Source of the DNA: Blastobasis lacticolella | Lineage: Eukaryota > Arthropoda > Insecta > Lepidoptera > Blastobasidae | Direction of reading: 5' to 3' | DNA: 64,000 nucleotides | Assembly: GCA_905147135.1 (NCBI GenBank) | Contig: LR990051.1 | Location: 17,947,115-18,011,114 of the forward strand | Part shown: one piece after another, positions 20,657 to 54,685 of the stretch | How the letters are laid out: every line of letters starts with the position of its first letter | How positions within the stretch are numbered: the stretch's first letter is position 1 | Translations under genes and position numbers: made by a program | Notes under the pieces: model-generated | The model's database searches: none | What the model was told of the DNA's origin: nothing | The model's input: the letters and a program-made list of their open reading frames with translations, nothing else

Positions 20657-20669
20657 GACGACTTCGACG

Positions 20670-22745: not shown

Positions 22746-23906
22746 TACCTATTTGCCAAAAATAACATGTTGGGGTCCCGAAGTTGACTGTTATAATATG
22801 CTTGCTTGAAAGAGAGCTGATTTTTGAGCTTCTGATACTATACCTAAACACATTACAGAGTTGCAAATGCACCTAGATCCGACTTCATTCATTCTTTCGA
22901 AGTTTGCTTATCCTACTACTAGTCTACTACCCGATTAATTTTTTTTATGTCGTACGGTAGGCAAACAGGCAAGTAGGCCACCTGATTGAAAGTGGTCACC
23001 ACTACCTATAGACATTAGCAACACAGAGAATATCGCCAATACGTTGCCCACCTCTATAACACGTTGCTCAGCAAAAGGCAAATGTCCCTCCACTGCCAAA
23101 GCCACGGTTCCCTAAATTCCCAGCCCATGGAGAACTGGAAACGATTAATTGTTATAAAGATGTTGGAATGATCGAGGTATTTGATTTTCAGCACATTTCT
23201 GTGCAATACCGTCGTAAGTGTGTACGTATGTTCAGTATCAGGCAAGTATGCAATTCCATAGCTCGTTCTTGGATACTACATACAAGGCCCTTACATCAGC
23301 TCAAAGCTCCAGGTAGTGAGATTCACACGTCCTTCTCGGTTCGCTGCGCTCCGATGCTCAGGGACATACCACTTATAAGTTCGAGGAACATCTAAAATTG
23401 TTAAGAGCTATGAAACAGTCAACTGCAGTGTTTGTCTAACAAGCTAATTAGTAACTGGTAGTGATGATCTCGATGTTTTTGATTACGTTGGTATGGAACA
23501 TATTACCAGACAGACTAAAGTGGGTATTGACTGGTTTACGTTGAACTACCGATTATAAGATTGCCTGTTATTTGTTTGCCATTTTGTGGAGGGAGCTGTT
23601 GACAATCAAATCTGTCAATTACTATATGGCATTATACGAGAGCAGAAAAAGTGGCCCAAGTGTGTATAGCAAATTTTGTGAACAAACCAAGTGTTTAAGG
23701 AATGTTTTCTTTAATAACATCTCGCTTCTGTAGGTCTGCTGGAAGAAGTTTCTTGTTAGAAATAAGTAGTGCCTGTTGTATCGTTTATAATTGTTTTTAT
23801 TTTATGTTTTATTGTGTACAATAAAGAGTTAAATAAATAATAATAACCAGAGTTGTGACCTTTTTTTTTAAGAATGTGCACTAGAACTGTTTCAACACTA
23901 TCCTTA

Positions 23907-26900: not shown

Positions 26901-27500
26901 TCCATAGCTCGTTCTTGGATACTACATACAAGGCCCTTACATCAGCTCAAAGCTCCAGGTAGTGAGATTCACACGTCCTTCTCGGTTCGCTGCGCTCCGA
27001 TGCTCAGGGACACACCACTTATAAGTTCGAGGAACATCTAAAATTGTTATGTGCTATCAAACAGTCAACTGCAGTGTTTGTCTAACAAGCTAATTAGTAA
27101 CTGGTAGTGATGATCTCGATGTTTTTGATTACGTTGGTATGGAACATATTACCAGACAGACTAAAGTGGTTTACGTTGAACTACCTGTAATCAGATTGCC
27201 TGTTATTTGTTTGCCATTTTGTGGAGGGAGCTGTTGACAATCCAATCTATCAATTACTATAATATGGCATTATACGAGAGCAGAAAAAGTGGCCCAAGTG
27301 CGTATGGCAAATTTGTAAACAAACCAAGTGCTTAAGGAATGTTTACTTCTTGTTAGAAGTAAGTAGTATTGTATCGTTTATAATTGTGTTTTTCCTTAAT
27401 GTTTTATTGTGTACAATAAAGAGTTAAATAAATAATAAATAACCAGAGTTCTGACCAATGTTTTCTAAGAATGTTCACTAGAACTGTTTCAACACTATCC
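23907..27500 (+). repeat. Tandem array unit III
   Basis: It is nearly identical to unit II up to about 26460. I noticed only scattered differences there, such as 'ctctagttttttt' against 'ctctagatttttt' near 26163. It then diverges more in the LINE-derived last kilobase. The right edge at 27500 ('aacactatcc') is the same edge that starts the array at 18041, so the units are exact tandem duplicates. Confidence 0.85.
24249..24292. repeat. Perfect 21-bp inverted repeat, unit III
   Basis: This is the copy of the 20613-20656 hairpin, exactly 3636 bp downstream. Confidence 0.9.
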
Positions 27501-30076: not shown

Positions 30077-30295
30077 ATGCTGAAAATCGGTGGCGGCGCC
30101 GTTCTGATCGCGGCGATCATTGCTGTGTTCGTGGTGGCCACCCAGGGCCGGGATCCAGACCTGGAAGCGCTGGAACACGAGGGCAAGGAGTACATCAAGC
30201 AGCTGGACATAGCAGCTGGTATTAGGAAGAATAGGGCCAGCCTCGCCGAGTGGGCGTACACGTCTAATATTACTAAGGAGAATGAGGAGAAAAAG
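30077..30295 (+). CDS. Ance: ACE gene 1 exon 1 (signal peptide)
   Basis: Residues 1-73. The ATG sits 3 bp after an acceptor (ttctttccag|acc), with ACC before it. That favours this start and implies an untranslated exon upstream. A hydrophobic run (residues 8-21) precedes a likely cleavage near ATQG. N-glycosylation sequon NIT at residue 64. The donor is AAAAAG|gtatgt, phase 0. Confidence 0.92.
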
Positions 30296-33200
30296 GTATG
30301 TGTATTTGAATTTTAATTCTAATTTAGTTGCCTTGTCTTGCCTTGAGCAAATAAATATTCTATTCTATTTTTGAATCACGCTATCTTTTGATGTAGACCA
30401 CATTAAAATTCGTTGCCTAGTTTAATGCGTTGTTATAAGCTTAAATAGATACAGAGGGACCGAACAGCGGGAAACGACTTTGTTTTATACTATCCATAGA
30501 TATATATTCATATTCATATTCATTTATTTATAGTAAAATATTTTACATCGTCATACAAATATACATCAAGTAATAACTATTAATGTTAAACGGTTATAAG
30601 ATCAATTATTCATAACAAAATAATCAATGTCGATATAAATAAAATAAAATAATTCATAAATAGCATCTACTACGTAAGTAGATTAAATAAAATCAATCAA
30701 TGTATACCGTCACGGGTTGCTAGCCGGTTTCCAAGACCTTAATCAGTCTCAGGGTCCTCAGCGGAAGACCTCGGTCAACCTCGCTTCGCCAACGATATAA
30801 GGAGCCACACCTAACGAGTGGCGGGCTCGTTGCGGTAGATGGAGTAGTCACTTATCTAGTTATCGGCATCGAAGTGCGTTGCTTAACTTTTGTTATCGAT
30901 CTCCCAAGCACGCTGCCACTAGACCGGGGCCGCTTTTTTGTATTTATCATTCTCAGCAATTCTAAATATCTTTATGGAAACAATTTTGTTTGCAATTACA
31001 ACATGTACCTACAACGTTAGAAGCCATCAATGAGTTTGCTGTTATCCATGATGATATTTGACATCTATCTATTTTTTTATTTTAAGTATACATACATATA
31101 CAAAAATAACAAGGAACTACTAATAGCTCCGTCTAATCGTACGATACACCTCAGAGCGAAACCAGCAAGAGATCTTTCCTCATCTCAAATTTGTGTTTCA
31201 TCCTCAACAACATCTTCAATTCATGCACTCCAGCGGATAATAACGAGCTTAATTACTCTTTCAGATACAAATCCAGTTAGAGCTGTCGAAGCAAGAGAAG
31301 CAGGCGTGGGAGGAAACGAAGATGTTCCACTGGCAGGACTTCCAGGACTTCTCGTTACGGAGGATGTTCAAGAAATATTCGGAGCTGGGAGCTTCAGCGC
31401 TGCCAGACGATAAATACAAGTTGCTCATGAAGTCAGTGTCGGATATGGAGTCGAACTATGCGACGTCGAAGATATGCGCCTACAAGAACCCCAGCAAATG
31501 TGACCTAGCTTTGGAACCTGGTAAGGACGTATTGTTACACTAGTTTTTGTCAAATCAATATCGCAAATAACGGGTCGGGAGAATCCCGTTGGATTTGCGA
31601 CCTGATAGTAATGTCGTTACAGTTGGAGATCTGTATCACTCCGTTCCGTTCACGTCGCTAGCATGATATGCTTCTGCAAGAGTGTTTGTAAGTCAAGTAA
31701 AGGAGGACCAGGTCTGATTCAGGTTTTTCATTGGTTCTGTTATCTGTACTTCAATTAAGAGTAATCAATTCTAATTGATGGCAGGGGTTACAACCAAAGA
31801 ACTGGTGCGCTCAGGATACTCAGTCTCAGACATGAGAGTTGTTGAATATAGATAACACCATATCTCGACCCCTTCAGACATGCTTGGAGATCTGTATTCG
31901 ATAACTAAAAATAGACTGTAGCGAGAAAAACATAAATAACGATAACAAAAGGTGGTAGTGTTAATACTTTTACTTAACAATAATTTCTTTTGATACCATC
32001 TTTTGCCCGCGACTTAGTCCGCGTGAAATTATCTTATTATATTCCAGGTCTGTTCCCACGGGAACCACTTTGAAATTCGCGATAAATTATAGCCAATGTG
32101 CTATGCTGGGCTATAACCTACATTACTGCCGAAATTCATCATAAGTCTTTTCAGTACTTTTTGCGTGAAAAAGTAATGAACATTACAGCAACATCCTTAC
32201 AAACTTTAAATTTTTTAAATTTGGTAGGATGAATGGTTTGAAAGCTCTCTTTGTATAATGATTTCATAGGCTGGCCATTGTCTAGAAACGAGCGATGGAA
32301 AATATTTACATTACAATTATGTTTTCCTCGATTCCAGACCTTACGGAGATCTTCGCTACGAGCCAGGATCCTGAGGAACTGAAGCATTATTGGCTGGAAT
32401 GGCACAGAGCGGCTGGGTCCCGTGCCAAAGAGAACTTCACGACATACGTGCAGATCGACAACGAAGCAGCAAAATTAAACAGTAAGGTTCTATTTTTAAT
32501 ACTCAGACTATAAATACTGATAATTAAGACGTCATGTCTTGTTATTATTTGTCGTATCGATTCTTTTCAAGTATGTGTATTTGGGGTTTACTAAAGATTA
32601 TGGTCACACTAATGGCTTTACCCAAATTTTTTACCTTAATCTTAGCTATCAGTAACGATATCATCATCAGAATTCGATTCATCGTGTTCGTGTCATCATC
32701 ATATCAGCCGAAAGACGCCCACTGCTGGGCATAGGCCTCCCCCAGAGATCTCCACAAAGACTGATCTTGTGCCTTCCGCATCCAGCTGGTACTTGCGATC
32801 CAGGTACACTGCGTCTTCCAGTACGTGGTCGCGTAACCCTGTACAATTTATCCAAAATAAAATTTTGTATTTGTAAATACAAATAACCTAACCGGCACTA
32901 TCGGAAGGGAAAGCCCTCGACATAGTCAAATATTTCCTAACTGAACTTATTTAAATGAAACAAAGCTAAGAAATATCCAATAAAATATATCGAAATCGGT
33001 CCTACTGTTTGGAAACTACGATGCGTAATGCCAGAGACGGACACACAAATACACCGTGATTCACTTCAAACTTATAATATAGTCTTATTGTGTGAGAGGT
33101 TAAAAGTATAATTAACACAGCACATTATGAAGTGGCCGTGTGGTATCTGGCAGAGTAGAATAGCACCAACCCCTTACACTCGTGGGTGTCGTACAAGGCG

Positions 33201-36200
33201 ACTAATGTTTTCTAGGCAAAAGATCTAAGAGACACCGTAGGTATGAAAATGGGCAGCAGCGTTTTCCAAATGTTATATTTGTAACATTGCGATCTCCATC
33301 CCGCCTGCCAACGTGGAGATTATGGCATTAATCTCCCTTTTCGTGGGAGTGGCCCTGACTCCTGCAGTGAATTGTTATGGGCTGTGATGATGATGACATT
33401 ATGAAGCTCACTTATTTGTCCCAGTGGTGTAGGCCTTGATTCTGTTTAGGCCTCGCACAAGTCCCAAAATCTCGATACATTTCGTTGAAGAATCAACTTT
33501 ATTGATCTGATCAGTAAACATTTTTCTGCGTCATCCTCTTTAAGTTGGTTTTCTAGTTACGCGCATTATCGTACATTTAAAATTCAAATACGTTTTAAAA
33601 AGCGATAAGAATTTACTTTCATCTGTGAAGGAAACCACATCACTAAATAAAGCTTATTAAAACTGGTTTAATAACTGACGAAACTAATAATTTCAGACTA
33701 CAAAGACGTGGCGGAGTGGTGGCAATCAGAGTACGAAGTCACAGACTTTGAGGAGCAGCTGGCTAAAATTTGGCGTGATGTGAAACCGCTGTATGAGCAG
33801 CTACATGCCTATGTCAGGAAACGCCTGCGGGACAAGTATGGCGACCAAGTAGTCTCGGCTAAGGGGCCGATACCTGCGCATTTGTTAGGTAAGAATCTAA
33901 GTATCTCTAGAACCTTGCAGAATGTTTATCTTAGAAACATTTCTTTCGTGCCCATGAATCGATCTGTACTTATCTGGTCAAACATTGGTGATGACGTGCT
34001 AAAATTTTATCGGGAGGTATTACCTAGGGAGGCACACGGTCAGGCGGTCCACCTGATGGAAAACGGCCACCGTCGACCAGGACATCTGCAACTTAAAGAA
34101 AGCGAAAAAAACAATTGCTAAAATATAGTCCAAACTGTATACTAATCAGTGACAAACGAGCAGACAGCCTGCCTGGTGGACAGCGGTGTCTGTCTCCCAT
34201 AACATCTATGATTAATGCAGTGTAACAAAATGCAGAACCGAAAGTGCATTGTCGCTGTGAGGACTATGATGAAATGTCTCATGCCTGTAATTGCGCTACC
34301 CTATAATTTATTGTAGAGTGTAACAATAGTTTTGTAGGAACTTGACGTGCAACTAATTAGGCAATAAAACAATACTAATTAGGTTTTTTGCGAGTTTGAA
34401 CTTCAATTTATAGATACGATGGTTGCTACGATACTAAATAACGAAGTAAAAAGAAAAAAAACTACGTAATATGTGACTACAACACCATATTACTTTCAAG
34501 TTTTCAAGTAATTTTCTCCTTTGTCCCCAAATAATTTGATACACGACGTGTTTTAGGTAACATGTGGGCTCAGACTTGGAACAATATTGAATCTTTCACA
34601 CGCCCGTACCCCGATAAGAAGGACATTGATATCACGCAGTCGATGCGGGAACAGAACTACACGGCCATTAAGATGTTCCAGATGTCCGATGAATTCTTCA
34701 GGTCTTTGAATCTTACCGCCATGCCTGATTTGTTTTGGAAGAACTCGATTATTGAAAAGCCTACCGATAGAGATATTGTTTGCCACGCATCCGCATGGGA
34801 CTTCTCTGATGGTGAAGACTTCAGGTAAAATAAATTCACTCTCAGTATTATAGTATCCTCTCTTTATCTCTCAGAATTATTATTCTCAGACATAGGCTCC
34901 AGACAATAGGCAGGCCCTGCTGCTTGCAGAACCGATGGCCGAAGGGATGAAAAGGTTCTCGAGTAGCGACTACTTACCGGCAATTGCAGCATGAAACGGC
35001 TCCCGCGACATGGACGGGCGACCTCGTAAAGGTCAAAGGGAGCCGATGACAATCAATCGAATTCAAGAATCTGTCCAATCCTGGAAACTCACGAGAAGCG
35101 AATCTGCTCCAATTTCAACTCTGTCCAATCCAGAATTTGTTGACCCAGAATCTACACCGAAAAAAGGTGCAGGAGGCACGAAGTCGATTGGTGTGGATGG
35201 CTTGGGGGAGGCCAATGTTCAGCACGGACGTTCTATGGCTGAGAGGCTTGGGGGAGGCCAATGTTCAGCACGGACGGAGATAGAATTTATCTCAGTCGTA
35301 GGACTGATGATGATGATTATTATTAGAGTGAATATTTCTTTATGATTCAGTAAGATAATCAATGGTTGATGAGTTGTTTTTGCTTTCTCAGAGTTTCTGA
35401 TTGTTTTGTTGTCTCGTTTCAAAGTTATATCGACAATATTGAGGAAAAATATGTTTGATTGTTGCTTTTTTTTTCAATTGAACTAGTAAACTTTGCTGTG
35501 AATATGAGTGGGTATGAATTTGGTGTATTGTTTTTGCGACTATCCCATAAAATCTATTCCAAATTTCTGTCTAACATGTCTGGCTTAAATTTTAAAGGAT
35601 CAAACAGTGCACAACAATTGATTATGAGTATTTTCAAACGACACATCACGAAATGGGGCACGTACAGTACTTCCTACAGTACAAACACCAACCTGTCATA
35701 TTCAGAGATGGAGCGAATCCAGGTAAATTATTTTGTACTCTAACATGTTTGTTTAAAGGATCAAAATGTGTACGGTGGTGAACAAGGAACATTTCCGAAC
35801 GGTACACCATGAAATGGGCCATGTCCAATATTACTTGCAGTACAAGCATCTGCCTGTTGTTTTCCGCGAGGGTGCTAATCCAGGTGAAGTTTTTTGTCGC
35901 TCAGACTAGCTATGTTGCTTCGTACATCGATTTTAAACAATATCATCATCATTAGCATTAACATCATGTAATATGATATCGATATGACTAACTGTGAGAT
36001 ATTGCATCATACTATATTATGTGTAATACATTTTTATGCAGATAAACTATTCATTCATTTTCTACAAGACTTTCGATCCAAAAAACTGGAAACGTTTCAG
36101 AATTTTGTTTCATACTTTGAAGTTGCTTTTTTGTTGTTAAATTGTCTTGACACGTGTTCTTAAATGTCGTTTAAATTGTTCATTGTAACCTATTTTATTT

Positions 36201-39200
36201 ACAATTATTTTAAATAATATGTAATGTTTTATAAAAAAAAAAAAAACAATAATTATACTAACACGCACATTCAATTTTATCAATGTTTGCCGCAAAATTT
36301 AAATATTTTCTTGCTGTTATTTTTAGGTTTTCATGAAGCTGTGGGCGATACGATTGCTCTATCTGTGTCATCACCGAAGCATTTACGCCGCGTCGGTCTG
36401 ATGAAGAGTGCAGCTGAGGATGAGCAAACTGAGATCAACCAACTTTATAAAATGGTGGGACATTTTTTATACGTCTCTATGACAATTGAGGAACAAAATC
36501 AATTTTTTTTCAAGAATTTGAAGTCATTTGAGTCAAGTCGAAGCTTTTTTTTATAACAAGCTTACAGCCTGCTAGATGGTAAGCAGTTACCGCAGCCTAT
36601 TGACGTTTGCAATACCAAGGACCCCGTAAAAGCGTTTTCATCCCTTTCTTCAAGAACTGCCATGTTGTACTGTCCAGGGTAAACCTCTCCAGGTAGTTGA
36701 GGTAGTACTTGACATAGGCTTGTCATTTTAAGAAATAATATTTAATCAATCAACAGATTTTGAATATCATTCAGTCACTGGTGACGCCATTAGTTCTCAG
36801 TTTACCTCCCTGTTTTTTTTTTTTTAATTAAAATATACTGTACTAACTTAATCCTTTCCACCACTTCCAGGGCATAGACAAGATAGTGTTCCTGCCCTTT
36901 GCATACACCCTGGACTTGTTCCGGTACGGCGTATTCCGAGGAACTACGACCCCGGAAGACTACAACTGCCACTACTGGCGGTTGAGGGAGAGCCTCCAGG
37001 GCTTGGAGCCTCCAGTCAATAGGACTGAGGAGGACTTTGATGCCGCCGCCAAGTACCACGTCTCGGCTGATGTGGAATACGCAAGGTAATTGTATGATAA
37101 GATTGGCACTCAAGCATGTATCTATGTACCTATAGTAGGGCTTGGATTGGTGATAGCGGTCATTGCCCCTAGCTCACAGAGTACAGATAGTGTGATGATC
37201 CACCCGTGTATTTTTCAGGCTTTACAGTATTATGCCACCAGTATCCGCAGGCAGGTATAGGATTTATATTATCATTACCATCATCATCATTTTGGCGTTA
37301 AGTCCCGGTTTCACTGTCGCGCGGCACCCGGGGTCCCGGGGTCCCGGGGTCCGCCTTTCTGTTTCTATTGGCCCACTTAAAACGTTCTTGGGCAACCTTG
37401 GTGGACGACATGTTTGTTTCGTCGTCATATCGTCAGCCTGTAACAAATAATCCTTAGTTGGACTCGACCCTCCTCCACATCTCCACACTTATCTGTAAAC
37501 ACTCCACTCTTATGAAATCACATATCATATCACTAATTCTATAATCGCAACGTTCGCCATCTACAGGCTGTTCACCCTCATACCTTGGATCCAAATTGGT
37601 CGCGAGCTGTGCGGTTCCATTAGAACTTTCTCTCACATATACTAAAGAGCTCCCTAGAGAGGTATTCCCTAGAGAGTACAAAATGGATTTCTTCAAGAAA
37701 AGGGTGAAAAGGTTTTACGGAGTCAGAAGCACGTGAGTGATTGATATAAAAAATAACTTTGTCCATTTCAGATACTACGTGTCCTTCATAGTGCAGTTCC
37801 AGTTCCATCGGGCTTTATGTCAACTCGCTGACGAGTACATTCCCGAGGATCCCACCAAGAAATTGGTGGACTGTGACATCTACCAGAGCGTCACTGCTGG
37901 CAACGCCTTGGCGTGAGTGACATTCTATTGTCGATACCGTGGTAGACTTAGGCAATGCAGTCAATGTCTGAGCATGGTTTAATACTTATCTCACTAGTAA
38001 TATACGATATGTGATCAAAGATGGAGCGTATCTGCCGTTTTTGTATACTAGAGAGAGGCATTCGAGCAAGCAGGCTACCTCATGGAAAGTGATCACCGCC
38101 GTCCATAAATTCTCAAAACACCAATACAACAATTGCATCCCCAGCAACATAGGTTTGGCCAGAACTTCGAGGAACCTAATTTAGACAAATTGCTCCCAGC
38201 CTGTGTGTTTCCTTTGGACTATGACATGGGAACGTTCAAGAGCTACATTAGAGGTCTCTTCAGAGGTGGGCAACGCATTGGTTACTCCCCTGGTGTTGCT
38301 GATGTCCATAGTCGGCGATGACCACTTTCCATCAGGTGGCCCGCTTGCCTGTTTGTCTGCCATATAACATAAAAAAAATTGGGTTCCTCGAAATCCTGGT
38401 CAGAGGCTATTGAACTCCATACTGTCTAGCAGTGTCCTGACTGCCTGTTGCAGTACCTAATGCAAGTAGACTAAACGCAAGCATTATTACTTGGCAACGA
38501 AAGTAGATAAGGCGGTTATACCTATCCGTGTACTCCTCAGGCTTGAGGCTTATTGAATCTTTGTCTTCTCAGCAACATGCTGAAGATGGGCTCTTCGAAG
38601 CCCTGGCCTGATGCGATGGAGGTCCTCACCGGGCAGCGGGCGATGCGCGCCGATGGACTGCTCGAGTACTTCAAGCCACTCCATGATTGGCTCAAGCAGG
38701 AGAATCAGCGCACCGGCGAGTACATCGGATGGGAGTCCAGTCGTACACGTGAGTATTTTTTCGTTACATTGCATATGGCAAGTGTTCGAGCGTCTACTCA
38801 TTTAGTGATTAGTGACAAAGCGGACGAACATGGTACGGTCGAACAAATAAAAGGCTACACAGGCGCTGTATCAGTACGCGTTATTTCTCTTTTGTCCCAT
38901 GTGTAGCATTTACCTAGTTCGACTGTATATATCTGCAGAAAGAGGATTCAAAAATCCAGGAGATGGCCACCAAATTAGACAATTACAGTGGTTATGGAGA
39001 GGTATTTGACGACTTATGGCCGTCCTATTTGGACACGTTGTATGAAACTAAATGTAGATAATGGCTTAAGGTGTAAGTAGACTCCTATGCCTCTATGTCC
39101 AATTTCTTTGAGCCCGACAGTATTTTGACAACAGAACTTAAGCCTCAGTAGCGCTATCTGATATCGCGAAAGCTCTCCTTGGGGAGTTTCTTCGTCGTAG

Positions 39201-39837
39201 TTTAGCAGGGAGATCTACCTAAGAGAAGCGTTGTCGACTTACTAAATAGTGTAAGGTAGGTCTCTACAAAGTAAATATTGTTTATGGGACTCTTTATTAC
39301 AAGCCATTTCAATATATATCGAAACAAATTCCATACCGAAGCCAACTGTTCCTGCGGTGATGTCCAAACTATGTTACACCTCTTATCGTAGGAGGATCTT
39401 ATGACTGCCACCGACAGTGCTATCAATGTGGTTAAGTTTTGAGCCACTACATTCTAGTGTTTGTCATGGACACGCTAAAAAGAAATAAATTCGAAGTAAT
39501 ATTTGATACAAAAAACTATGAAGCTGTAAAAAAGTAACAATCATAGGTGTACGACCAACACCAACACTCTGATGAAGATTATGAATATTATGATTATCAT
39601 ATCAGTAAAGACTGCTGGGTCTCCCCCAGGAATCTCCATGTAGATCGGTCCTGAGCCATCGACATCCAGCTGGTACGGAGATCATAGGAACTCATATTTT
39701 TATCTAGCAATGTAATGATGTTAATTTACCTGCAATAAAGAACCTTATTTCCACCAGAATACTGCACGGCCGAGCAGCTGGCGGCGCTCGAGGCGAAGGC
39801 GGCGCCGAGTCCGTCGCCGACGCCAGCGCAGTCGTGA
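30077..39837 (+). CDS. Ance: ACE gene 1: secreted angiotensin-converting enzyme homologue (M2 peptidase), spliced
   Basis: This is a zinc dipeptidyl carboxypeptidase of family M2 that trims C-terminal dipeptides from extracellular peptides. Eleven coding positions join to 1944 nt (647 residues): 30077-30295, 31265-31520, 32338-32481, 33697-33888, 34557-34824, 35598-35722 or 35759-35883, 36327-36454, 36871-37085, 37772-37912, 38573-38748, 39758-39837. Residues 1-24 form a signal peptide. Visible landmarks are CHASAWDF (346-353), HEMGH zinc motif (377-381), FHEAVGD with third zinc ligand Glu405, and the substrate-binding Lys505, His507, Tyr514 and Tyr517. Arg483 and Arg516 match chloride-linked arginines of human ACE. 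Cys144/152, 346/364 and 532/550 fit the family disulfides. There is no C-terminal membrane anchor; the tail is Pro/Ala/Ser-rich. The length fits single-domain insect ACEs. The symbol is at family level; orthology to a named fly gene is not shown. Confidence 0.95.
31265..31520 (+). CDS. Ance: ACE gene 1 exon 2
   Basis: Residues 74-158 plus the first base of codon 159. Acceptor tctttcag|ATACAA, donor CCTG|gtaagg, phase 1. It is 256 bp, the same as gene 2 exon 2. It contains a helical N-terminal lid region and the Cys144/Cys152 pair. Confidence 0.92.
32338..32481 (+). CDS. Ance: ACE gene 1 exon 3
   Basis: Residues 159-206. Acceptor gattccag|ACCTTA, donor AACA|gtaagg, phase 1, 144 bp as in gene 2. 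It holds the 'WLEWHRAAG' segment and a glycosylation sequon NFT (Asn191). His181 lies near the position of Arg186 of human testis ACE, one of the chloride-I ligands, so that site is probably not conserved. Confidence 0.92.
32692..32832 (-). mobile_element. RTE-type LINE 3' end in intron 3
   Basis: 'tatcagccgaaagacgccca' to 'ttccagtacgtggtcgcg' is the - strand RTE end, with an internal deletion compared with 58617-58850. Confidence 0.7.
33132..33400 (+). repeat. Dispersed repeat family N, near complete, in intron 3
   Basis: It starts 'gtgtggtatctggcagagta' and ends 'gttatgggctgtgatgatga'. It is the best + strand copy of the family in the window. Confidence 0.7.
33697..33888 (+). CDS. Ance: ACE gene 1 exon 4
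   Basis: Residues 207-270. Acceptor atttcag|ACTACA, donor TTAG|gtaaga, phase 1, 192 bp as in gene 2. It contains the family-typical '[19 protein letters not shown]' and the start of '[16 protein letters not shown]'. Confidence 0.92.
34557..34824 (+). CDS. Ance: ACE gene 1 exon 5
   Basis: Residues 271-359 plus two bases of codon 360. Acceptor ttttag|GTAACA, donor TTCAG|gtaaaa, phase 2, 268 bp. It carries Gln276 in NMWAQTW, which matches the substrate-binding Gln281 of human testis ACE, and CHASAWDF (346-353) with the peptide-backbone-binding His347/Ala348. In gene 2 the same segment is split by an extra intron at the Gln303/Asn304 equivalent. Confidence 0.92.
34885..35330 (+). mobile_element. 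Decayed RTE-like LINE 3' end in intron 5
   Basis: It is a diverged relative of the 39965-40250 element, with 'cgatggccgaagggatgaaa', 'gacatggacgggcgacctcg' and a terminal 'gatgatgatgattattatt'. A 34-bp segment ('gcttgggggaggccaatgtt' on) is directly duplicated at about 35202 and 35250. It ends about 270 bp before exon 6a. Confidence 0.55.
35598..35722 (+). CDS. Ance: ACE gene 1 exon 6a: zinc-site exon, version a
   Basis: Encodes the rest of Arg360, residues 361-401 and the first base of codon 402. Acceptor ttttaaag|GATCAA, donor CCAG|gtaaat. It carries Cys364, HHEMGH (376-381), '[14 protein letters not shown]' and RDGANP. It is intact, with no stop and the phases needed by exons 5 and 7. It is closer to the single exon 6 of gene 2 (30 of 41 whole codons give the same residue, by my count) than exon 6b is (25 of 41). 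It is predicted to be used instead of exon 6b. Confidence 0.92.
35759..35883 (+). CDS. Ance: ACE gene 1 exon 6b: zinc-site exon, version b (mutually exclusive)
   Basis: It has the same length (125 bp), phases and boundary codons as exon 6a: acceptor gtttaaag|GATCAA, donor CCAG|gtgaag. It encodes Cys364, HHEMGH, '[14 protein letters not shown]' and REGANP. Of 41 whole codons, 29 give the same residue as 6a by my count; all zinc ligands and the catalytic Glu are kept. Changes cluster just before the zinc helix (Tyr371His, Gln373Arg, Thr375Val relative to 6a) and at 385 (Phe to Tyr) and 397 (Asp to Glu). Splicing 6a to 6b would shift the frame. Confidence 0.92.
36327..36454 (+). CDS. Ance: ACE gene 1 exon 7 (third zinc ligand)
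   Basis: Residues 402-444. Acceptor atttttag|GTTTTC. It contains '[15 protein letters not shown]' with Glu405, the third zinc ligand, and 'PKHLRRVGL'. It ends AAAATG|gtggga, phase 0, a weak donor; the matching exon in gene 2 ends at the same codon. Confidence 0.9.
36871..37085 (+). CDS. Ance: ACE gene 1 exon 8
   Basis: Residues 445-515 plus two bases of codon 516. Acceptor cttccag|GGCATA, donor GCAAG|gtaatt, phase 2, 215 bp as in gene 2. It contains '[19 protein letters not shown]', 'NCHYWRLRE' (Arg483) and '[15 protein letters not shown]' with Lys505, His507 and Tyr514, which match C-terminal carboxylate binders of human ACE. By my count 53 of 72 residues, including split Arg516, equal those of gene 2. 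Confidence 0.93.
37560..37735 (+). mobile_element. CR1-like LINE 3' fragment in intron 8
   Basis: It reads, after frameshifts, as [19 protein letters not shown], then KRFYGVRST and a stop. This is the usual C-terminus of a CR1/Jockey-like reverse transcriptase. It ends only about 35 bp before exon 9. Confidence 0.65.
37772..37912 (+). CDS. Ance: ACE gene 1 exon 9
   Basis: Residues 516-562 plus two bases of codon 563. Acceptor catttcag|ATACTA, donor TTGGC|gtgagt, phase 2, 141 bp as in gene 2. It contains '[17 protein letters not shown]' (Arg516, Tyr517, Cys532) and CDIYQ (Cys550). Confidence 0.93.
38150..38375 (+). mobile_element. CR1/Jockey-like LINE 3' end in intron 9
   Basis: The + frame reads [20 protein letters not shown], then the tail 'tggcccgcttgcctgtttgt'. 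It is a 5'-truncated copy related to 5680-5920 and 57755-57960. Confidence 0.7.
38573..38748 (+). CDS. Ance: ACE gene 1 exon 10
   Basis: Residues 563-621 plus one base of codon 622. Acceptor cttctcag|CAACAT, donor ACAC|gtgagt, phase 1, 176 bp as in gene 2. It contains '[20 protein letters not shown]', '[11 protein letters not shown]' and 'GEYIGWE', typical of the M2 C-terminal lobe. Confidence 0.93.
39758..39837 (+). CDS. Ance: ACE gene 1 exon 11 (C-terminus)
   Basis: Residues 622-647 and the TGA stop (39835-39837). Acceptor ttccaccag|AATACT. It encodes [15 protein letters not shown] and a Pro-Ser-rich end ([10 protein letters not shown]). It is locally GC-rich. Cys624 is shared with gene 2 and could pair with Cys477 (inference). 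There is no hydrophobic anchor, so the enzyme is soluble. Confidence 0.9.
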
Positions 39838-45402: not shown

Positions 45403-45624
45403 ATGATCCTCAAAATAGCAGGAGAATTGGCTCTGGTTGGGGCCATAGCCTCAGTCTTCATAGTAGCTGCTCAAGGCTGGGCAGCAGAGAGGGCTGCCGA
45501 AGAGGCCTCAGGAAGAGAGTACATGAGGACCCTGGATGACTTGACTTCCAAAATGAAGAATCGACAGAGTCTAGCTTCTTGGGGATATGAGACAAATATT
45601 ACCAAGTACAATGAGGATCAGTTG
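45403..45624 (+). CDS. Ance: ACE gene 2 exon 1 (signal peptide)
   Basis: Residues 1-74. The ATG is the first codon after the acceptor (attcaaccag|ATG). A hydrophobic run ends near VAAQG. It shares '[13 protein letters not shown]' with the gene 1 equivalent in frame, including the NIT sequon (Asn65). The donor is CAGTTG|gtaaga, phase 0. Confidence 0.92.
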
Positions 45625-48600
45625 GTAAGACTACGATAATTTATAAAGACATACATACATATATTCCGTCACGCCTTTTTCTTATAGGGGTAGGCAGAAA
45701 CATCGTTCCACTTGCAGTGGTCCTGACAGATCTCACTTGCTTCTTCAATATTATCATACACTATACTTATTTACTACACATTTATCATTTCGACAAATAC
45801 CTCTCTCTATAATTCAACAACAACAATACAACTGGTGTGTCGCTCGAGGGGGGTGGGAGTACCCTATGGTAGCAGGGCGTGGGGCAATAACATTTTGTTC
45901 CGAAGACCTTGAGGACCCTGCCCTACGCCCCCAGCTTTCAGACCGAAACAACCCCCGAATTCCTTCTCCCACCTACCTCACCGCAGGCGATACACCAGTT
46001 GTGTTGTCGATTGTTATCCACGTTATGTTATCGTTTCCATCAAATAAATATTCTAGGGAATGCATAGAGCACTATGTTGCATATGTCCATTTTGTCAAAA
46101 TGCACCTTAAAAGTATTCTCCGGATAAATCTCTGAAGAAATAATTAATAAATGTTTAACAAATTACAGCTCCAAATATCTCTCGAATTAGCTGAAGAGGA
46201 AAAGGAGTATTGGAAAGAAACAATGACTTACCTCTGGCATGAGTTTGAGGATGAGGAATTAAAACGTATGTTTAAGAAATACGCATTGCTAGGTACCTCG
46301 GCGCTGCCAGAAGACTTGAATCAGAGGCTGATTCAAGCCGTCAGTAACATGAAGTCGACGTATGCAACTGCCACGATATGTGATTACAACGACAGGAGTA
46401 AATGCGACTTGCATGTCGAACCAGGTAATGATTGGCTATAAGAAGATATGGCGAGACTTGACATGAAGGGAATAATTTGTATCAAACTACTACTTAATCC
46501 TTCTGCTGTTAGACAACACTTCTTTCTCCCAAATCTCTTTGAGAATACCGCCACCTTATGTAGGTTAGTGGAGAACACCCACATAGACTTGATTCTTTAA
46601 TTTATTTAACAGCAGAATCTAATGGACTGTCAATATAATGTGATATATGTACCTGAAGAGCACTATATACTCCAAGAGTGTGTCTTCTCTTGATTATTTA
46701 TGTTTAGTCAAATTAGATTTGGAGCAAATGCTGTAAGACTATAGCAACGATCAATTTCTTGACTTGCAGAAGTAACAGACATCTTCGCCAAAAGCGAGGA
46801 CCCTGAAGAGTTGAAGTATGCGTGGGTGGAGTGGCATAAGGCTGCAGGTGCGCCTTCCAAGGGGAACTTCACGGAATACGTGGAAATGTATAACGAAGCT
46901 GCAAGGTTAAATGGTAAGAAATAGTAGTGGTATCTGTCTTGATTTAAATTTTTTATTATTGTCAATTGGTTAACAAACAGGCAAGCGGGCCACCTAATCA
47001 CTACTGTCTACGGTGGTATTTTTCTTTATTTAGGGAGCTTGATTGCATTAAAACGACTATGCCGCTCCATATTGTTATACTTTTATAAAAATGGGTATGA
47101 GCGAAGTTGCCTACGCTTCAAACCCACCCATACCAATTTATATACTTCTTTGGCCTTCCTCAACAGAGGAAACGCCAGAGCACTATTACAACAATTACGT
47201 CTATAGACATCTATTACTTTAAAATAAACTATTTAGCACGTTTCTCGCAGACAAGGTTTAGGTGTATCATTTTCCAGCAGTGAACTATTAAGGGATCTGG
47301 TAAGTAGATCAGGTCCATGAATAAAGCAGGGACTGCGTCAATCATGGTGAAAGTATTCGACAGCCATCACAGCCTCGAAGAAGTTTAGATAAGTTCCTGA
47401 GCACACAAAAGGTTGTCATTAGAAAGGTATACCCATTTACGAGACATATGGGATTTACAGAATAGCATCTTTCCTACTAACGTCTACACGAGCCTAAAGA
47501 TTAACTAACGAATCCTGACGAGCCGAAAGATTTGTTAGGAACTAACCACAGTAGAAACGTTTTAGTTTCAGTATTTACTACACGGTGTTCAAATTAATTC
47601 TAATTTTTCAGGATATGACACTGTAGCGGAATGGTGGTTAGGCGAGTATGAGTCAGCGACTATTGAGGAAGAGTTCTTGACTCTGTGGAATCAGATTAAG
47701 CCTTTGTATCAGCAAATACACGCCTACGTCAGAGGAAAGCTTCGAGAGAAATATGGCGAAGGCGTAGTGTCAGCTAGAGGACCTATTCCTGCTCATTTGT
47801 TGGGTAACTATTATTCTTGATATTATCTTACTAATATAGACATTATCAAATATATAACTGCTTACAGTGCTACAAACTTATCTGACCCAGTGGTCAATTC
47901 TGTAACTGTTGAAAAATGCGGCACTTAATTATGAAATGTATGTGTACTGACATGTCAATACCAAAAATAGCGCCGCCCGACACAGGGTCTGATAAATTTG
48001 TGGCACTGTAAAGTAAAGTATTGTTGATTCTTTGACTTCTTTAAAAGTACCTCTTGTACTTAGTATTTTTTTTTTCTAAACTACTACGCATTCTTTGAAA
48101 ACAATGGACTATCGGCTGACAATAATAAATGGAGAATACAAACAAAAGAATGCAAACATTTGTAAATGCCAAATTACCTATATGTTAATAATGTACTCTC
48201 CCTGTGTTTTAAGTTTGATGATGTTGAAATTTACTATAATGACATTGAAATGAAGATATTTGTAAAGCTTCCTGACGTTGGTGTAATTAGGATCGTGACC
48301 TTTTGCTGTTAAATTTCTCTCCAACAATACAACGTAATTTAGAGGTGCAACAAAATATCATCAAAACCGAATTATCCACCACATTTACATCATTATTTAT
48401 AAACTGTTACAGAAACTAACTAGCGACTTAATAATTTGAAATTCTAGGTAACATCTGGGCCCAAACTTGGAGCAACGTTGAGAAGTTTACAAGACCTTAT
48501 CCGGATAAAGATGATATCGATGTGACTGCAGCTCTTCTTGATCAAGTAAGTAGACACTCAACATATGTTATTTTAGAACTTATCTGGAGTATGTAGCGAC

Positions 48601-51600
48601 TTGAGTAAAGGGCGAGCTAATCTGTAAGCGATAACTGTGATAAGGTGCTTACACACCGGTTTTTGCAAATGTTGCAAAAAATCTCCTTTTATTTCGATTT
48701 GTTTAGAAATGTTTGTAAAAGTTTCTAATTGTATCTGAAACAATTCGAAACTTTGTTTTAACTGCTCCCACACTGAATATTTCAAAATGTTTCAAATGTT
48801 TCTGAACACCGGTGTGGGAGCATATATATGACTTGCATATATAAAAAAAAAAATCAAACCTATAAGATTTATAAATGGATGATTTTTTCTACTTAGGGAT
48901 TTGGGGGAGAGGATTATTATATCTGATTAATTTTCATCATCATCATCTATCCGTTCTTATCCGACCAGGACGCGTCGGCACAATAATTCTCTATTTTCCA
49001 GTCAACCATATGACTCCTTCCGTTCGCATGTTATCACTTACACAGTCATTCATAGGTCCGCATCTATCTAAGTATCCATTCATCCACATTAATATTCATC
49101 GCCTTCCTTGTCACATGACTCCCTCCCCATAACATGCCCATACCACGATAGCCCTGCTTCTCATCTTGCATCACTGGCGCTACGTCTCATTTGCATCACT
49201 GGCGCTACGTCTGATTTATTTTACAAGCTTTTATTTCTGATGACCTCTATGGTTCAGTTGGTCAATAGACTACGCGTCTGCCACGCAGAAGTCTCGTTTT
49301 CGACTCCCGGCCGGGTAGAAATTGCAATCAAAATTTTTAATTTCTGTTACGGATTTGAGTGTTATATGTATAACTAGCAGCCGCCCCGGCTTCGCACGGG
49401 TAGCACTACGGGTACACGGGTATATAGCAAATGTCACCCGGGGATAGTGTAGCTTCACAACGGTGAAAGAATTTTTGAAATCGGTCCAGTAGTTTCGAAG
49501 CCTATTCAATACAAACAAACAAAAGATCAAACCTTTCCTCTTTATAATATTAGTAAAGATAAGTATGTCTATCTATCTCAGTGTGCCTAGACGTATTACA
49601 ATGCCTTAATATATATTATGTATTAATATAGTATATGTTTATTTTATTCATATATACCTATTAGTATGTATAGAATATTATGTATGTATTTATTTATAGT
49701 ATATAATTATTGTGCACGTCGTATCTGCGTATATTTATCATATCTCTCTTTTTGTAGGCCTGCTGGAAGAGATTTCTATTTAGAGATAAGTAGTGCCTGT
49801 TGTCTAATATCTAATTTGTACTATATCTTTAATTTTCTTGTGTACAATAAATTGTTAAATAAATAAATATGTATTTAATCATATTTAAATGGTTTATCAG
49901 TTTTCTGGCACCCATAACACGCTAGATGGCGCTGTGTGAATTGCTTAAACATATTTATTTATTATTTCGTTTCACATGTCCCCATGTCAATTCGTGACAA
50001 AATCTTGGAAGTTAAATTTCACCCCTTTCCCGGTTTCCGATTGAGCTGAAATTTTGCCTACTCCATGTAAGTTTGGTGACTATGCAATATTATGATGCCA
50101 TCGAGTTGATCTGATAATGGAGTATGAAGGTAGACTAACCTACACGTGTGGATAGTCTTGACAAATACTCTGACTGATCATGGAGAACGCGCCATGACAG
50201 CATGCTATGAATACTTTTTTTTTTATCTTGTAAATCGCTACAATAAACTGCCGAATATTAATTCCCTGTAATATTGATTACAGAACTATACGGCTGTGAA
50301 ACTCTTTGAAACTGCAAACGAATTCTTCATCTCACTTGGTCTGATGGAAGTTCCAGACCTTTTCTGGGACACGTCGATTTTTGAGCGACCAAATGACGGA
50401 CGAGATATGATCTGCCATGCTTCAGCTTGGGACTTCTTTGATGGCGAAGATTTCAGGTATGATGTTGCTGAAAATATTTGACGTTCATCATTAGTCACTG
50501 CAGTAACTTGCTGAGCATAGATCTACCTCAAGGTAGGTACGTTAGTTTGTCCATTGAGCGTATCGTCGCCCCATGTAAGCCAAAAGCCGTTCAGTAGGAC
50601 GTTCGGCCATTTCTGGTGTCCATTTTAGTAATTATTATACTTAAAGACAAAAAAAAAACACTGACAGAAAAGGACACTTCGTTTCGTTCAATTTTTTGTT
50701 ACATTTTCCTGCTTTTTTGGCTCAGAATTTAAATCAGTCAGAGAAGCAATAAGTTTGTTTAAAAGTTTTATTATTTACAGGATAAGGCAATGTACGAGCA
50801 TTACCAGTGCCTTCTTCCAGACAACTCATCATGAGATGGGCCACATTCAGTATTACTTGCAGTACAAAGACCAGCCCGTAATTTATAGAGGAGGGGCTAA
50901 TCCAGGTACTAGAAATGTTTTTTTTAAATTCAGCTCAGTGATAAGCTAGCAGACAGCCCATCTGATGCTAAATGGTAACTGTGGTGTGGTATTTTTTAAT
51001 TTTTTGCTCATTTTTTTACCAACGACGTAACGGAGATGATTTATGCGTTTATTGTGATATGTTGTTTGTTTGCTTCATGTGTATGAGACACTCCATTGAA
51101 TGTTATACTTTGTCTCCAAAACGGTTTGACCGATTTAGATACGGGTTTCAATAATAGATTTGTGATTCATCCATGATTGTTAGATAGTTGTTATGGTGTT
51201 AAGTCACCACGGGGCGCTGTAATCACCTTTTTCCATGGAAACGTAACAAAATCTCCAAAATTGGTTTATTAATTATTTCCAGCCTTAAATATTCTAAAAC
51301 ATTAATGCCCATACAATTTCCACCTCCAGGATTCCACGAGGCCGTTGGTGACGTCATCGCTCTCTCGGTCTCGACTCCGAAACATTTGAAAACCATGGGC
51401 TTGCTGGAAGATGGGCCGGAAGACCTCGAGTCCAACATCAACCAGTTGTTCAAAATGGTATAGTGTAATTTAATATAAGCAGATTTTATTAACCTGCGGT
51501 AAAAAAAAAAAGAAAAAAGAATTTATGTTTTAAAAGAAAAGACAAAACAATATTGCGAGCAACAACGTTAATATGACCCTGGGGGGGGGGGCGTCAGTCG

Positions 51601-54600
51601 CCTTTATTCAAGTTAGTTTCCCTATTGGCTGCGCGTTAGTTCCATTTTATGCCACATTCATTATTAATGTAGTTGAGCTCTATTAGACTGTGAGGGTAGG
51701 TACAGTCGAGTTCATTAATATGTAAGCATTACCAAGGCTTCAAATTTAAATGTACATGGAAGGGTACTTATATATTTGAACAGATTCATCAATCAAACAT
51801 ATGTACATCTGCTCAGATATATAGGTACCCTTCCATTTACATTTATATTTGAAGCCTTGGTAATGCTCACATATTAATGAACTCGACTGTACCATAGGTT
51901 ATCTTACGTCATCGAGTATGAGAAATATTTATTTATATTAAAACTTTATTGCGCAATAACACAATTGGCGTATTTAAAGCCATTAAGGCTTTATCTACCA
52001 GTCAACCAATAGACAATATGCCATTTTGTAGCGTCTAGAGTTTTCGCGGACCCACAAAGTAGGACTGCCTATGCACAACCTGACACTTTTAATGCAGTCG
52101 AAACGATGAGTAGTTATTTTGCCACCAAAAGGTGACTTCAATGTTGTTGGCTAGCGAAATGGCCAAGATTATGTAAAACAGACTGGAAATAACCACCAGA
52201 CGTGCGTTAGTTGGGCATTATAGGTTTTGTGGGTCTACTAAACCTGTACTATCGCTAAAAAGTGGCATATTTACTGTACTGAATGACGTAGGATCACAAT
52301 CTAGATTGTTTTATTATTTTTCTAAACTAATCTGTACTAAACATGCTTTTAGACAGGGCTTTTTTGGCCAGGCAAGTAATTTTCTTAAGAAGTCAACTGA
52401 GATGAACGTCATGTTCGTTACAACTCTGTTTCGAACACAAGTTTAATTTTCTGGTTTTGTCGTCTTCTTAGTTTGAAGGTCTATTTCTAGGGACGTCATC
52501 GTTCGTAATACGAGTCGTCAAGTATCGCTCAACCTTATTGGTCATAATATGACCAATATGGGCCCAGCATATTTATTTATTATTTATTTCAGGGTCTCCA
52601 AAAGATAGTATTCCTGCCGTTTGGATATTTGCTGGACGTGTACCGCTACAGCGTTTTCCGCGGCGATACCACACCCAATGAGTATAACTGCCACTTCTGG
52701 CAGTTGCGAGAGACCCTCCAAGGTCTGGAGCCACCAGTACCAAGATCTGAGCAAGACTTCGACCCAGCTGCCAAGTACCATATCTCGGCTGATGTAGAAT
52801 ACATGAGGTAATTTTAAATGGAAGTGTAAAATATTTTCTATAGGTATATAAGGTGACATCAAATTCATGATACCAAGCGGTACTGTAAGTATATGCTCGT
52901 GATAACAAACATCTTTTACTATAGCACCAACTGTGTGATTGATAAAAAATCAGCTGTTTGATACAGTTTGGCAAAATACGTTTTTAATTTTGTATGAAAC
53001 AGCTGATCTTTTTTTCGCGATTTCAGAGTTGGTGCCACAGTAAAAGTGGTTTGTTAACGCAAGCACATGCATAGGGTACCTCTTTCTATCATGAATTTGA
53101 AATCACCTGTATAATTCAAAAGAAGATGAAGGAGTAACAAAAATACTTATATACTTTCGCATTTATAATATAAGTAGGATCTGTCCGAAGTGGGTTAGGT
53201 TCCAACTGTCTTAAAATGTCACTATAAACGGAACGTAATTCTCAACTACACTCTCCCAACTCTCACCCCTCGATTCCAGATACTACATCTCCTACATAGT
53301 GCAGTTCCAGTTCCAGCAGGCACTGTGCCGGTTGGCCGACGACTACGCACCTGGCGACCCGGATCGACTCCTGGCCAATTGCGACATCTATAAGAACAAA
53401 GAAGCTGGAGCGGCTCTGGGGTTGGTTCCTTGTCACATTTTTTTATTTCACCAAGTTGGCAAACAAGCTTACGGCCTGCCTGATGGTAAGCAGCCACCGC
53501 AGCCTATAGACGTTTGTAATACCAGGGGCATCACCTATACTAATATTGTAAGAGGTTAATTAGTTGTGCCTCCTAATAATTTTGGCGAAGCGAGGTTGAC
53601 CAAGGTCTTCCGCTAGGAACCCTGAGATTGGTTGAACAGCCTCAGGAGCCCGGGGGGAAGAAATACCATACCTTTAAAAAAAAGAAAACCGCATTGAAAT
53701 CGGTTAAGCCGTTCGGGAGCTATGATGGCACAGACAGAGCCACAGACACACAGATGCACACGTGTGGACTGTTATGGGCTGTGATGATGATCGTTGTAAT
53801 GTGGTGTCCTTGTTAATCAATAAATATCTTTCATTTCATTTTAAACTCACACCTTTCTTTTATCGTCGCAGGTTATAAATACTAACTCCCCTTTCAATTG
53901 AGCTTAACGAGCTCGCAAATCTCTCGAAATATATTTCTATCCAACATTCACAGAACAACGACTATTCTGTTCCTTTCAGCAAGATGCTGCAGCTCGGGTC
54001 TTCAAAGCCTTGGCCTGATGCGATGGAAGTACTGACTGGCCAGCGTAACATGGACGCCAGTGGTCTGATGGAGTACTTCCAACCTCTCTACGAGTGGTTG
54101 AAGGCTGAGAACGAGAGAACCGGCGAATACGTCGGCTGGGATGAGAGTACCGTTGGTTAGTGTCTTTTTACCTGACTGCCAAGGACGTGTTTTCCGCGCG
54201 AATCTTGTATATATTTTTTTAAGTTATACGGCAGACAAACAGGCCACCTGATGGAATGTATATTTGTAAATTTCTTTTTTAATTATTTTCTTTCAAACGG
54301 CTGAATGGTACCGTTAGATTCGTCTCAAAAACCCAAGGGTAATTAGAGTTGTTTAAAAAAAAATTGTGGATGTTGGGTGTGGCTATGGGCAGCGGCGAAC
54401 CTCAGGTGATCTAGTTGCTCGTTAGCCCCCATATATAAAGATTGTTAAAATCAACGTTAAAAATATATCTAGGATTCGAATAATATGTTGAAGGAGATTG
54501 TTAAAATACAAAGTACCTAATATACATTTTCAGAATACTGCACACCAGTCCAGCGAATGGAGTTCGAAGATACAGAATTTGCACGAAGACTCAAAAAGTT

Positions 54601-54613
54601 GGCTGGTCAATAA
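45403..54613 (+). CDS. Ance: ACE gene 2: secreted angiotensin-converting enzyme homologue (M2 peptidase), spliced
   Basis: This is the tandem paralogue of gene 1. Twelve coding exons join to 1950 nt (649 residues): 45403-45624, 46169-46424, 46770-46913, 47612-47803, 48448-48545, 50284-50456, 50781-50905, 51330-51457, 52593-52807, 53280-53420, 53980-54155, 54534-54613. Residues 1-25 form a signal peptide. Landmarks: CHASAWDF (348-355), HEMGH (379-383), FHEAVGD with Glu407 as third zinc ligand, [15 protein letters not shown] with Lys507, His509, Tyr516 and Arg518, and the family cysteines. The C-terminus is short and charged, with no anchor, so the protein should be soluble and extracellular. 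All intron positions and phases match gene 1, plus one extra intron between Gln304 and Asn305. Only one zinc-site exon is present. The start 5.6 kb after gene 1 and the same strand indicate tandem duplication. The symbol is at family level. Confidence 0.95.
46169..46424 (+). CDS. Ance: ACE gene 2 exon 2
   Basis: Residues 75-159 plus one base. Acceptor aattacag|CTCCAA, donor CCAG|gtaatg, phase 1, 256 bp. It contains '[18 protein letters not shown]' and the paired cysteines of '[12 protein letters not shown]'. Confidence 0.93.
46770..46913 (+). CDS. Ance: ACE gene 2 exon 3
   Basis: Residues 160-207. Acceptor gacttgcag|AAGTAA, donor AATG|gtaaga, phase 1, 144 bp. It contains '[17 protein letters not shown]' and an NFT sequon. 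Confidence 0.93.
47030..47185. repeat. Dispersed repeat in intron 3, pair with 7200-7345
   Basis: 'ccgctccatattgttatact' and 'gcttcaaacccacccatacc' match the other copy. Its class is unknown. Confidence 0.55.
47612..47803 (+). CDS. Ance: ACE gene 2 exon 4
   Basis: Residues 208-271. Acceptor tttttcag|GATATG, donor TTGG|gtaact, phase 1, 192 bp. It contains '[19 protein letters not shown]' and 'GPIPAHLL'. Confidence 0.93.
48448..48545 (+). CDS. Ance: ACE gene 2 exon 5a
   Basis: Residues 272-304. Acceptor attctag|GTAACA, donor GATCAA|gtaagt, phase 0, 98 bp. It contains '[19 protein letters not shown]'. The donor splits what is a single exon in gene 1. Confidence 0.92.
48640..48830. mobile_element. 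Possible MITE in intron 5a
   Basis: 'gcttacacaccggtttttgc' on the left and 'gaacaccggtgtgggagca' on the right are partly inverted around a block of imperfect 'gtttcaaatgtttc'-type repeats. The ends are not sharply defined. Confidence 0.4.
49250..49975 (+). repeat. SINE family A interrupted by two insertions
   Basis: The SINE head (49252-49375, 'gtctgccacgcagaagtctc') and tail (about 49868-49960, 'ctagatggcgctgtgtgaat') are split by a block starting 'actagcagccgccccggctt' (49376-49558) and a LINE tail (49755-49866, 'gcctgctggaagagatttct'). This shows three layers of insertion inside the extra intron of gene 2. Confidence 0.7.
50284..50456 (+). CDS. Ance: ACE gene 2 exon 5b
   Basis: Residues 305-361 plus two bases of codon 362. 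Acceptor ttgattacag|AACTAT, donor TTCAG|gtatga, phase 2, 173 bp. It contains the NYT sequon and [14 protein letters not shown]. It has one residue more than gene 1 (an extra Gly in NDGRDM). Confidence 0.93.
50781..50905 (+). CDS. Ance: ACE gene 2 exon 6 (zinc-site exon, single copy)
   Basis: Residues 362-403 plus one base. Acceptor atttacag|GATAAG, donor CCAG|gtacta, 125 bp as in 6a and 6b of gene 1. It contains [20 protein letters not shown] and RGGANP. I found no second copy in either flanking intron. Confidence 0.94.
51330..51457 (+). CDS. Ance: ACE gene 2 exon 7 (third zinc ligand)
   Basis: Residues 404-446. Acceptor cacctccag|GATTCC, donor AAAATG|gtatag, phase 0, 128 bp. It contains '[20 protein letters not shown]' with Glu407. 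Confidence 0.93.
51701..51891. mobile_element. MITE with ~70-bp inverted repeats in intron 7
   Basis: The ends are 'tacagtcgagttcattaata' and 'tattaatgaactcgactgta'. The arms continue as 'aagcattaccaaggcttcaa' against 'ttgaagccttggtaatgct'. It is 191 bp long, flanked by TA, with no ORF. A mariner-type origin is likely from the TA ends (inference). Confidence 0.85.
51925..52015 (-). repeat. LINE 3' tail fragment in intron 7
   Basis: 'aaaactttattgcgcaataa' and 'aaagccattaaggctttat' are the reverse complement of the tail at 63860-63935 ('tggctttaagtccgcc', 'gtgcaataaagttttt'). Confidence 0.55.
52593..52807 (+). CDS. Ance: ACE gene 2 exon 8
   Basis: Residues 447-517 plus two bases of codon 518. 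Acceptor tttatttcag|GGTCTC, donor ATGAG|gtaatt, phase 2, 215 bp. It contains '[18 protein letters not shown]' and '[13 protein letters not shown]' with Lys507, His509 and Tyr516. Confidence 0.94.
52851..53108. mobile_element. MITE family C in intron 8
   Basis: The ends are 'aggtgacatcaaattcatga' and 'tcatgaatttgaaatcacct'. Inside are further inverted pieces ('atcagctgtttgata' and 'gaaacagctgat'). It is 258 bp, noncoding. A related element lies at 58372-58620. Confidence 0.8.
53280..53420 (+). CDS. Ance: ACE gene 2 exon 9
   Basis: Residues 518-564 plus two bases of codon 565. Acceptor cgattccag|ATACTA, 141 bp. It contains '[17 protein letters not shown]' and CDIYK. The donor is CTGGG|gttggt, phase 2, a weak site. 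The length and phase match gene 1, which supports the boundary. Confidence 0.9.
53980..54155 (+). CDS. Ance: ACE gene 2 exon 10
   Basis: Residues 565-623 plus one base. Acceptor tcctttcag|CAAGAT, donor GTTG|gttagt, phase 1, 176 bp. It contains '[20 protein letters not shown]' and 'GEYVGWDE'. Confidence 0.93.
54534..54613 (+). CDS. Ance: ACE gene 2 exon 11 (C-terminus)
   Basis: Residues 624-649 and the TAA stop (54611-54613). Acceptor cattttcag|AATACT, 80 bp as in gene 1. It encodes [20 protein letters not shown], then KKLAGQ. The tail is basic and charged instead of Pro-rich, and carries no anchor. Confidence 0.93.
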
Positions 54614-54685
54614 AATTTGTCACTTTGTCACTTGTTATGATTGTTAATGAACGTTGTGTTAAAAATGAAATTGAAGTAAGACCTA

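Follow-up and report, generated by a model that had tools for sequence, protein, structure and literature searches.

The reason for the two catalytic sites of mammalian angiotensin-converting enzyme (ACE) is an old question, and a locus of the moth Blastobasis lacticolella (Lepidoptera) asks whether a single ACE gene could offer two such sites by exchanging one exon. We analyzed a stretch of 64,000 nt (hereafter the window; contig LR990051.1, positions 17,947,115–18,011,114, forward strand) from a 577-Mb genome assembly (45 contigs). One ACE gene in it (gene 1, an M2 peptidase) carries two neighboring exons, 6a and 6b, each encoding the zinc-site motif HHEMGH. The best explanation, which we regard as very probable on the sequence evidence set out below, is that the two exons are mutually exclusive and give two ACE isoforms with differing substrate preference. 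Mutually exclusive exons and M2 peptidases are both known, while exchanging the zinc-site exon of an ACE in that way is apparently undescribed.

A model built from splice sites and reading frame gives gene 1 11 coding exons per mRNA and 647 amino acids per isoform (Table 1). Exons 6a and 6b are 125 nt each, with AG/GT borders, an open frame, entry phase 2 and exit phase 1, and either of them fits between exons 5 and 7; the initial annotation had described this tandem pair with exact coordinates. It also had both exons end in GANPG, of which GANP is encoded in each, whereas only the first base of the Gly codon lies in the exon and exon 7 completes it. The two copies are identical at 84/125 nt and 30/42 amino acids, and 6b was recovered by tblastn with 6a as the query at an E value of 4e−22, so the likeness is not due to chance. 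A degenerate DNA pattern for HHE(M/L/I)GH matched three times in the 64 kb, at 35644 (6a), 35805 (6b) and 50827 (exon 6 of gene 2, the adjacent paralogue), and tblastn found neither a third exon-6 copy in gene 1 nor a second one in gene 2 at E < 0.05 within the window.

The exons of gene 1, including 6a and 6b, scored above the cut-off of PF01401, the profile of the M2/ACE family. The zinc ligands, which in Drosophila AnCE are His367, His371 and Glu395 (available part of PMC12025037), are present as HHEMGH in both 6a and 6b and as the downstream Glu in GFHEAVGD of exon 7. The counterparts of the other active-site residues (AnCE Lys495, His497, Tyr504, and Tyr507) were located by alignment to the AnCE stretches AAKYH, SADVEY and RY. 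Zinc and catalytic residues are the same in both isoforms. Predicted models of two Spodoptera orthologues (P0010 and P0150) are confident and both have the ACE fold, the window's own protein being considered as sequence only; the difference in Z between these models was given no biological meaning.

The intron between 6a and 6b measures 36 nt, compared to 324 to 1738 nt for the 21 other introns of both gene models. The distance from the 5′ splice site to the A of a CTAAC motif in it, a putative branch point recognized from sequence, is 20 nt, and CTAAC also occurs upstream of 6a. In human and other vertebrate genes, the steric threshold between 5′ splice site and branch point is about 50 nt, according to the accessible parts of PMC5740500 and PMC7969005. 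The short intron would thus sterically bar the joining of 6a to 6b at the spliceosome. Joint use of both exons in gene 1 brings the frame to a stop at residue 409, skipping of both at residue 363, and retention of the 36-nt intron at residue 421. The pair therefore combines what is expected of mutually exclusive exons, i.e., homologous neighbors matching in length and phase, unproductive joint use or skipping, and a putative short-intron barrier. Judged from these features, the exclusion is doubly secured, by a probable steric barrier and by frame loss, because the 36-nt intron has a nearby branch-like motif and early stops arise when both or neither of the exons are used. The proposal of one exon per message made in the initial annotation gains support from the same features.

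For a comparison with other Lepidoptera, orthologues were collected from three protein searches (best 120 hits of 122, 175, and 7903) and restricted to proteins of 560–760 amino acids containing the motif. Among the matches listed, 32 records are gene 1 orthologues (73 to 84% identical outside exon 6; 22 named species plus two contigs), 16 of the 6a type and 16 of the 6b type, while gene 2 orthologues (identity 57 to 64%) carry a single exon-6 type of another kind. The a/b label was set by the Gln or Met before Cys, a position that separates the types by construction, and eight near-duplicates (P0015, P0017, P0018, P0028, P0145, P0146, P0147, P0148) were excluded from trees and residue counts. 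Both types are widespread, and Spodoptera exigua is represented by a record for each, with 14 of the 15 substitutions between the two falling in exon 6. A whole 6b protein (648 amino acids) lies on a contig of 2154 bp and a whole 6a protein on one of 2111 bp; as gene 1 spans ten kilobases here, both contigs must presumably derive from spliced RNA. P0014 is a cDNA-sized contig that uses 6b. The "ecdysteroid-inducible angiotensin-converting enzyme-related" protein of Bombyx mori (P0153) is an orthologue of gene 1 (81% identical when exon 6 is excluded) and is of the 6a type; no mention of a second zinc-site exon in Bombyx was found in the literature, the Bombyx papers being judged from listings. 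Moth ACE studies may have examined one isoform of two. A gene 1-like annotated protein of Dendrolimus kikuchii (P0240) has no HHE motif at all, which places it outside the 32; its annotation seems to skip the tandem exons.

When exon 6 is left out, the protein tree shows the types intermixed, with 10 changes over 24 labeled rows (a raw count), and Tortricidae, Pyralidae, and Noctuidae each hold both. In the tree of exon 6 the types fall apart, with 2 changes per type. Such a combination would be expected from a single early duplication that every lineage retained and of which databases show one isoform at a time. Between 6a and 6b, the proportion of synonymous differences (pS) is 0.95 and that of nonsynonymous differences (pN) 0.17 (Nei-Gojobori counts; pN/pS about 0.18, with synonymous sites saturated). 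Since nearly all synonymous sites have changed and few replacement sites have, the sequences indicate that the duplication is old and that both copies are constrained. The deepest branches sampled, with Eumeta (6b) and Plutella (6a), suggest in view of lepidopteran systematics that the duplication dates from around the root of Ditrysia. Outside exon 6, contig P0052 (2131 bp) branches as sister of the lepidopteran gene 1 orthologues; it has a 6b-like exon and, once its species is known, may help to date the duplication.

What the exchange would alter is the substrate pocket. Five of the eleven visible rows in Table 3 of PMC12025037, a compilation of subsite residues that vary among AnCE, cACE, and nACE, concern positions of exon 6 (AnCE 360, 363, 364, 375, and 387). 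In the window they read Glu, Gln, Thr, Phe, and Asp in 6a and Glu, Arg, Thr, Tyr, and Glu in 6b, i.e., the swaps concern S1′ (363, Gln/Arg) and S2 (375, Phe/Tyr; 387, Asp/Glu). Across species, position 363 fully separates the classes, with Gln, Glu, or Ala in 13/13 6a rows and Arg or Lys in 13/13 6b rows, and positions 361 and 365 are also disjoint. Positively charged S1′ residues also occur outside 6b: Lys363 is present in 30 of 283 other segments from the searches (Gln in 4, Arg in 4), many of these Lys coming from gene 2 orthologues. Positions 375 and 387 correspond to residues 369 and 381 of the human N-domain, to which the N-domain selectivity of the inhibitor RXP407 has been tied, Arg381 being argued to be a weak driver of selectivity (both in the accessible text of PMC11880972). 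Each isoform would keep the whole zinc and catalytic machinery within different surrounding pocket residues (S1′ Gln vs. Arg/Lys, S2 Asp vs. mostly Glu, S2 Phe vs. mostly Tyr), and therefore the two forms should favor different peptides, a single exon thus serving the purpose for which mammals have two linked domains. Gene 1 would thus probably make two enzymes of different substrate preference, a change of specificity and a use in Blastobasis that we infer.

Several observations weigh against this interpretation. The threshold of about 50 nt was derived from vertebrates, and we know of no measured steric value for moths. No sign of a special RNA structure was found around the exon pair (folding z +1.59; equal or better folding in 97 of 100 shuffled sequences), and a regulatory RNA structure there is left without support. 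Positions 375 and 387 show only tendencies between the classes, with Tyr375 in 3/13 6a rows, Phe375 in one 6b row, and Ala, Asn, or Asp387 in 4/13 6b rows. The exon tree is built on 40 columns only and weakly supported; neither type is a single clade in it, P0052 falls inside 6b, and 6a groups weakly with gene 2 exons. Single clades were not rejected by the corresponding tests (6b, p 0.26; 6a, p 0.35; 6a plus 6b, p 0.093), and the tree is compatible with an exon split either before or after the split of genes 1 and 2.

A rather unlikely alternative accepts that the exons are mutually exclusive and has the isoforms differ in stability or in binding of inhibitors or partners instead of substrate choice, or has their difference simply go along with tissue-specific regulation. 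Roughly half of the 12 residues that differ lie outside the named subsite positions, 360 and 364 are identical in both window exons, and some 6b rows have a 6a-like residue at 375 or 387, all of which would suit it. It is opposed by the complete separation at S1′ position 363 and by the presence in exon 6 of five of the eleven visible table rows introduced above. Very unlikely, in our judgment, is a dose switch in which inclusion of both or neither exon leads to a stop and message decay, tuning the amount of one enzyme; all three unproductive outcomes do end in an early stop, but such stops are expected from any 125-nt pair, and the protein-level constraint and class-specific residues of both exons would be left unexplained. 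That one exon is a decaying copy, rarely or never used, is likewise very improbable: despite the greater variability of 6b among species (mean identity 0.76 vs. 0.88 for 6a) and its diverged form in Scirpophaga, all 13 6b rows keep the open frame, the splice sites, and HHEMGH, and both the pN/pS ratio and the occurrence of 6b in P0014 oppose decay. Chance or an assembly or annotation artefact as the source of the pair was rejected as having next to no probability, with nothing found in its favor, copies that differ at 41/125 bases (a third), and both types occurring in records of other species.

Mutually exclusive zinc-site exons with two substrate preferences may also extend beyond Lepidoptera. 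In Anabrus simplex (Orthoptera), ACE isoforms X1 and X2 have 12 differences, all in exon 6, with Glu vs. Arg at the position equivalent to human 403/381. X1 and X3 (P0206, P0207) have 16 differences, all at 271–300 in the exon 5 segment, whereas the lepidopteran pair here is exon 6; this suggests a second alternative exon pair in Orthoptera. Gryllus bimaculatus P0002 contains two consecutive exon-6 segments, Glu then Arg, and Timema californicum P0140 a cut exon-6 segment followed by a whole one; both are probably gene models that fuse a tandem pair. Gene models that skip or fuse the pair yield broken proteins, such as that of Dendrolimus without the motif and that of Gryllus with two motifs in a row. 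The Anabrus and lepidopteran pairs may be one ancient pair or may have arisen repeatedly. Tentatively, and with the odds somewhat against it, insects may have arrived more than once, by a tandem copy of the zinc-site exon, at a splicing equivalent of the mammalian ACE with its two domains. Its use would probably be controlled by tissue or ecdysteroids, and one locus would thereby process two sets of signalling peptides; the pocket switches would then be, in Lepidoptera, Gln to Arg at S1′ and Asp to Glu at S2 and, in Orthoptera, Glu to Arg at S2, the last being the difference between the human C and N domains.

Table 1 Features of the ACE locus (positions in the window)
Feature	Position	Strand	Basis
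Gene 1, ACE (M2 peptidase)	30077..39837	+	splice-site/frame model, PF01401, phmmer to PDB ACE chains
Gene 1 exons 1–4	30077-30295, 31265-31520, 32338-32481, 33697-33888	+	splice-site/frame model
Gene 1 exon 5, shared upstream partner, exit phase 2	34557..34824	+	splice-site/frame model
Exon 6a, HHEMGH zinc-site variant a	35598..35722	+	PF01401, 63.6 bits at corresponding genome place
36-nt intron between 6a and 6b, CTAAC branch-like motif	35723..35758	+	sequence
Exon 6b, HHEMGH zinc-site variant b	35759..35883	+	PF01401, 66.5 bits at corresponding genome place
Gene 1 exon 7, shared downstream partner, entry phase 1, GFHEAVGD with third zinc ligand Glu	36327..36454	+	
Gene 1 exons 8–11	36871-37085, 37772-37912, 38573-38748, 39758-39837	+	splice-site/frame model
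Gene 1 stop codon TGA	39835-39837	+	
Gene 2, adjacent ACE paralogue, intact open frame	45403..54614	+	end inferred from stop in gene model
Gene 2 HHEMGH exon, single copy	50781-50905	+	pattern match, tblastn

Elsewhere in the genome, no tandem exon-6 pair was found at the other ACE loci compared (L009–L019, a set that leaves out the PF01401 matches at C12 18.24–18.25 Mb and 2.90 Mb), where L009, L011, L012, and L014 each gave one exon-6-like match. Two of these are further ACE genes in which HHEMAH replaces HHEMGH with HEXXH intact (L009, 7863–7988; L011, 4836–4964), and an ACE-like exon that has lost HEXXH (L014, 9644–9781; C1, 20.2 Mb) is probably an inactive relative. The window also contains a repeated segment with a spacing of about 3.6 kb (18734–27018), of which 300-nt pieces start at 18734, 21179, and 24815 (94%) and at 19437, 23073 (98%), and 26719 (68%).

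The initial annotation knew of no described insect ACE of this design. As far as papers go this stands, with no description of a swapped ACE zinc-site exon found in searches of open-access literature (subscription papers mostly missing); it does not extend to automated annotation, which lists such isoforms (Anabrus X1/X2). The data of PMC7954323 count 9 events touching catalytic sites, and the word angiotensin is absent from that paper. Domain duplication of ACE is reported as separate in vertebrates, Anopheles, and Ciona (available part of PMC1325048). An exchange confined to the 42 residues surrounding a constant zinc site amounts to a natural experiment on the two-site question, with predictions for single residues.

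Drosophila AnCE and Anopheles AnoACE2, the best insect relatives by sequence in PDB and close fold matches, are single-domain M2 peptidases like gene 1, and we know of no alternative zinc-site exon for either. The alternative exons of serpins swap the reactive loop of what are inhibitors, whereas gene 1 exchanges the catalytic core of the enzyme itself. Common to both is that tandem alternative exons diversify one insect protein (PMC10513286, accessible part). In the Anopheles gambiae ACE family, the alternative exons named in the available text of PMC1325048 are first exons only, in contrast to the alternative zinc-site exon of gene 1. OGDH exons 4a/4b and similar pairs have an intervening intron whose branch points, at 25–41 nt, are closer to the 5′ splice site than the proposed threshold (PMC7969005, available part); the Blastobasis intron is even shorter at 36 nt, with a branch point recognized as a motif only. 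Human somatic ACE, like gene 1, offers two zinc sites of different specificity from one gene, and its selectivity arises partly from 391/369 and 403/381 (PMC11880972, accessible text), which are exon 6 positions in gene 1; in the human enzyme both sites lie in one chain through domain duplication, whereas gene 1 would provide one site per chain, chosen by splicing.
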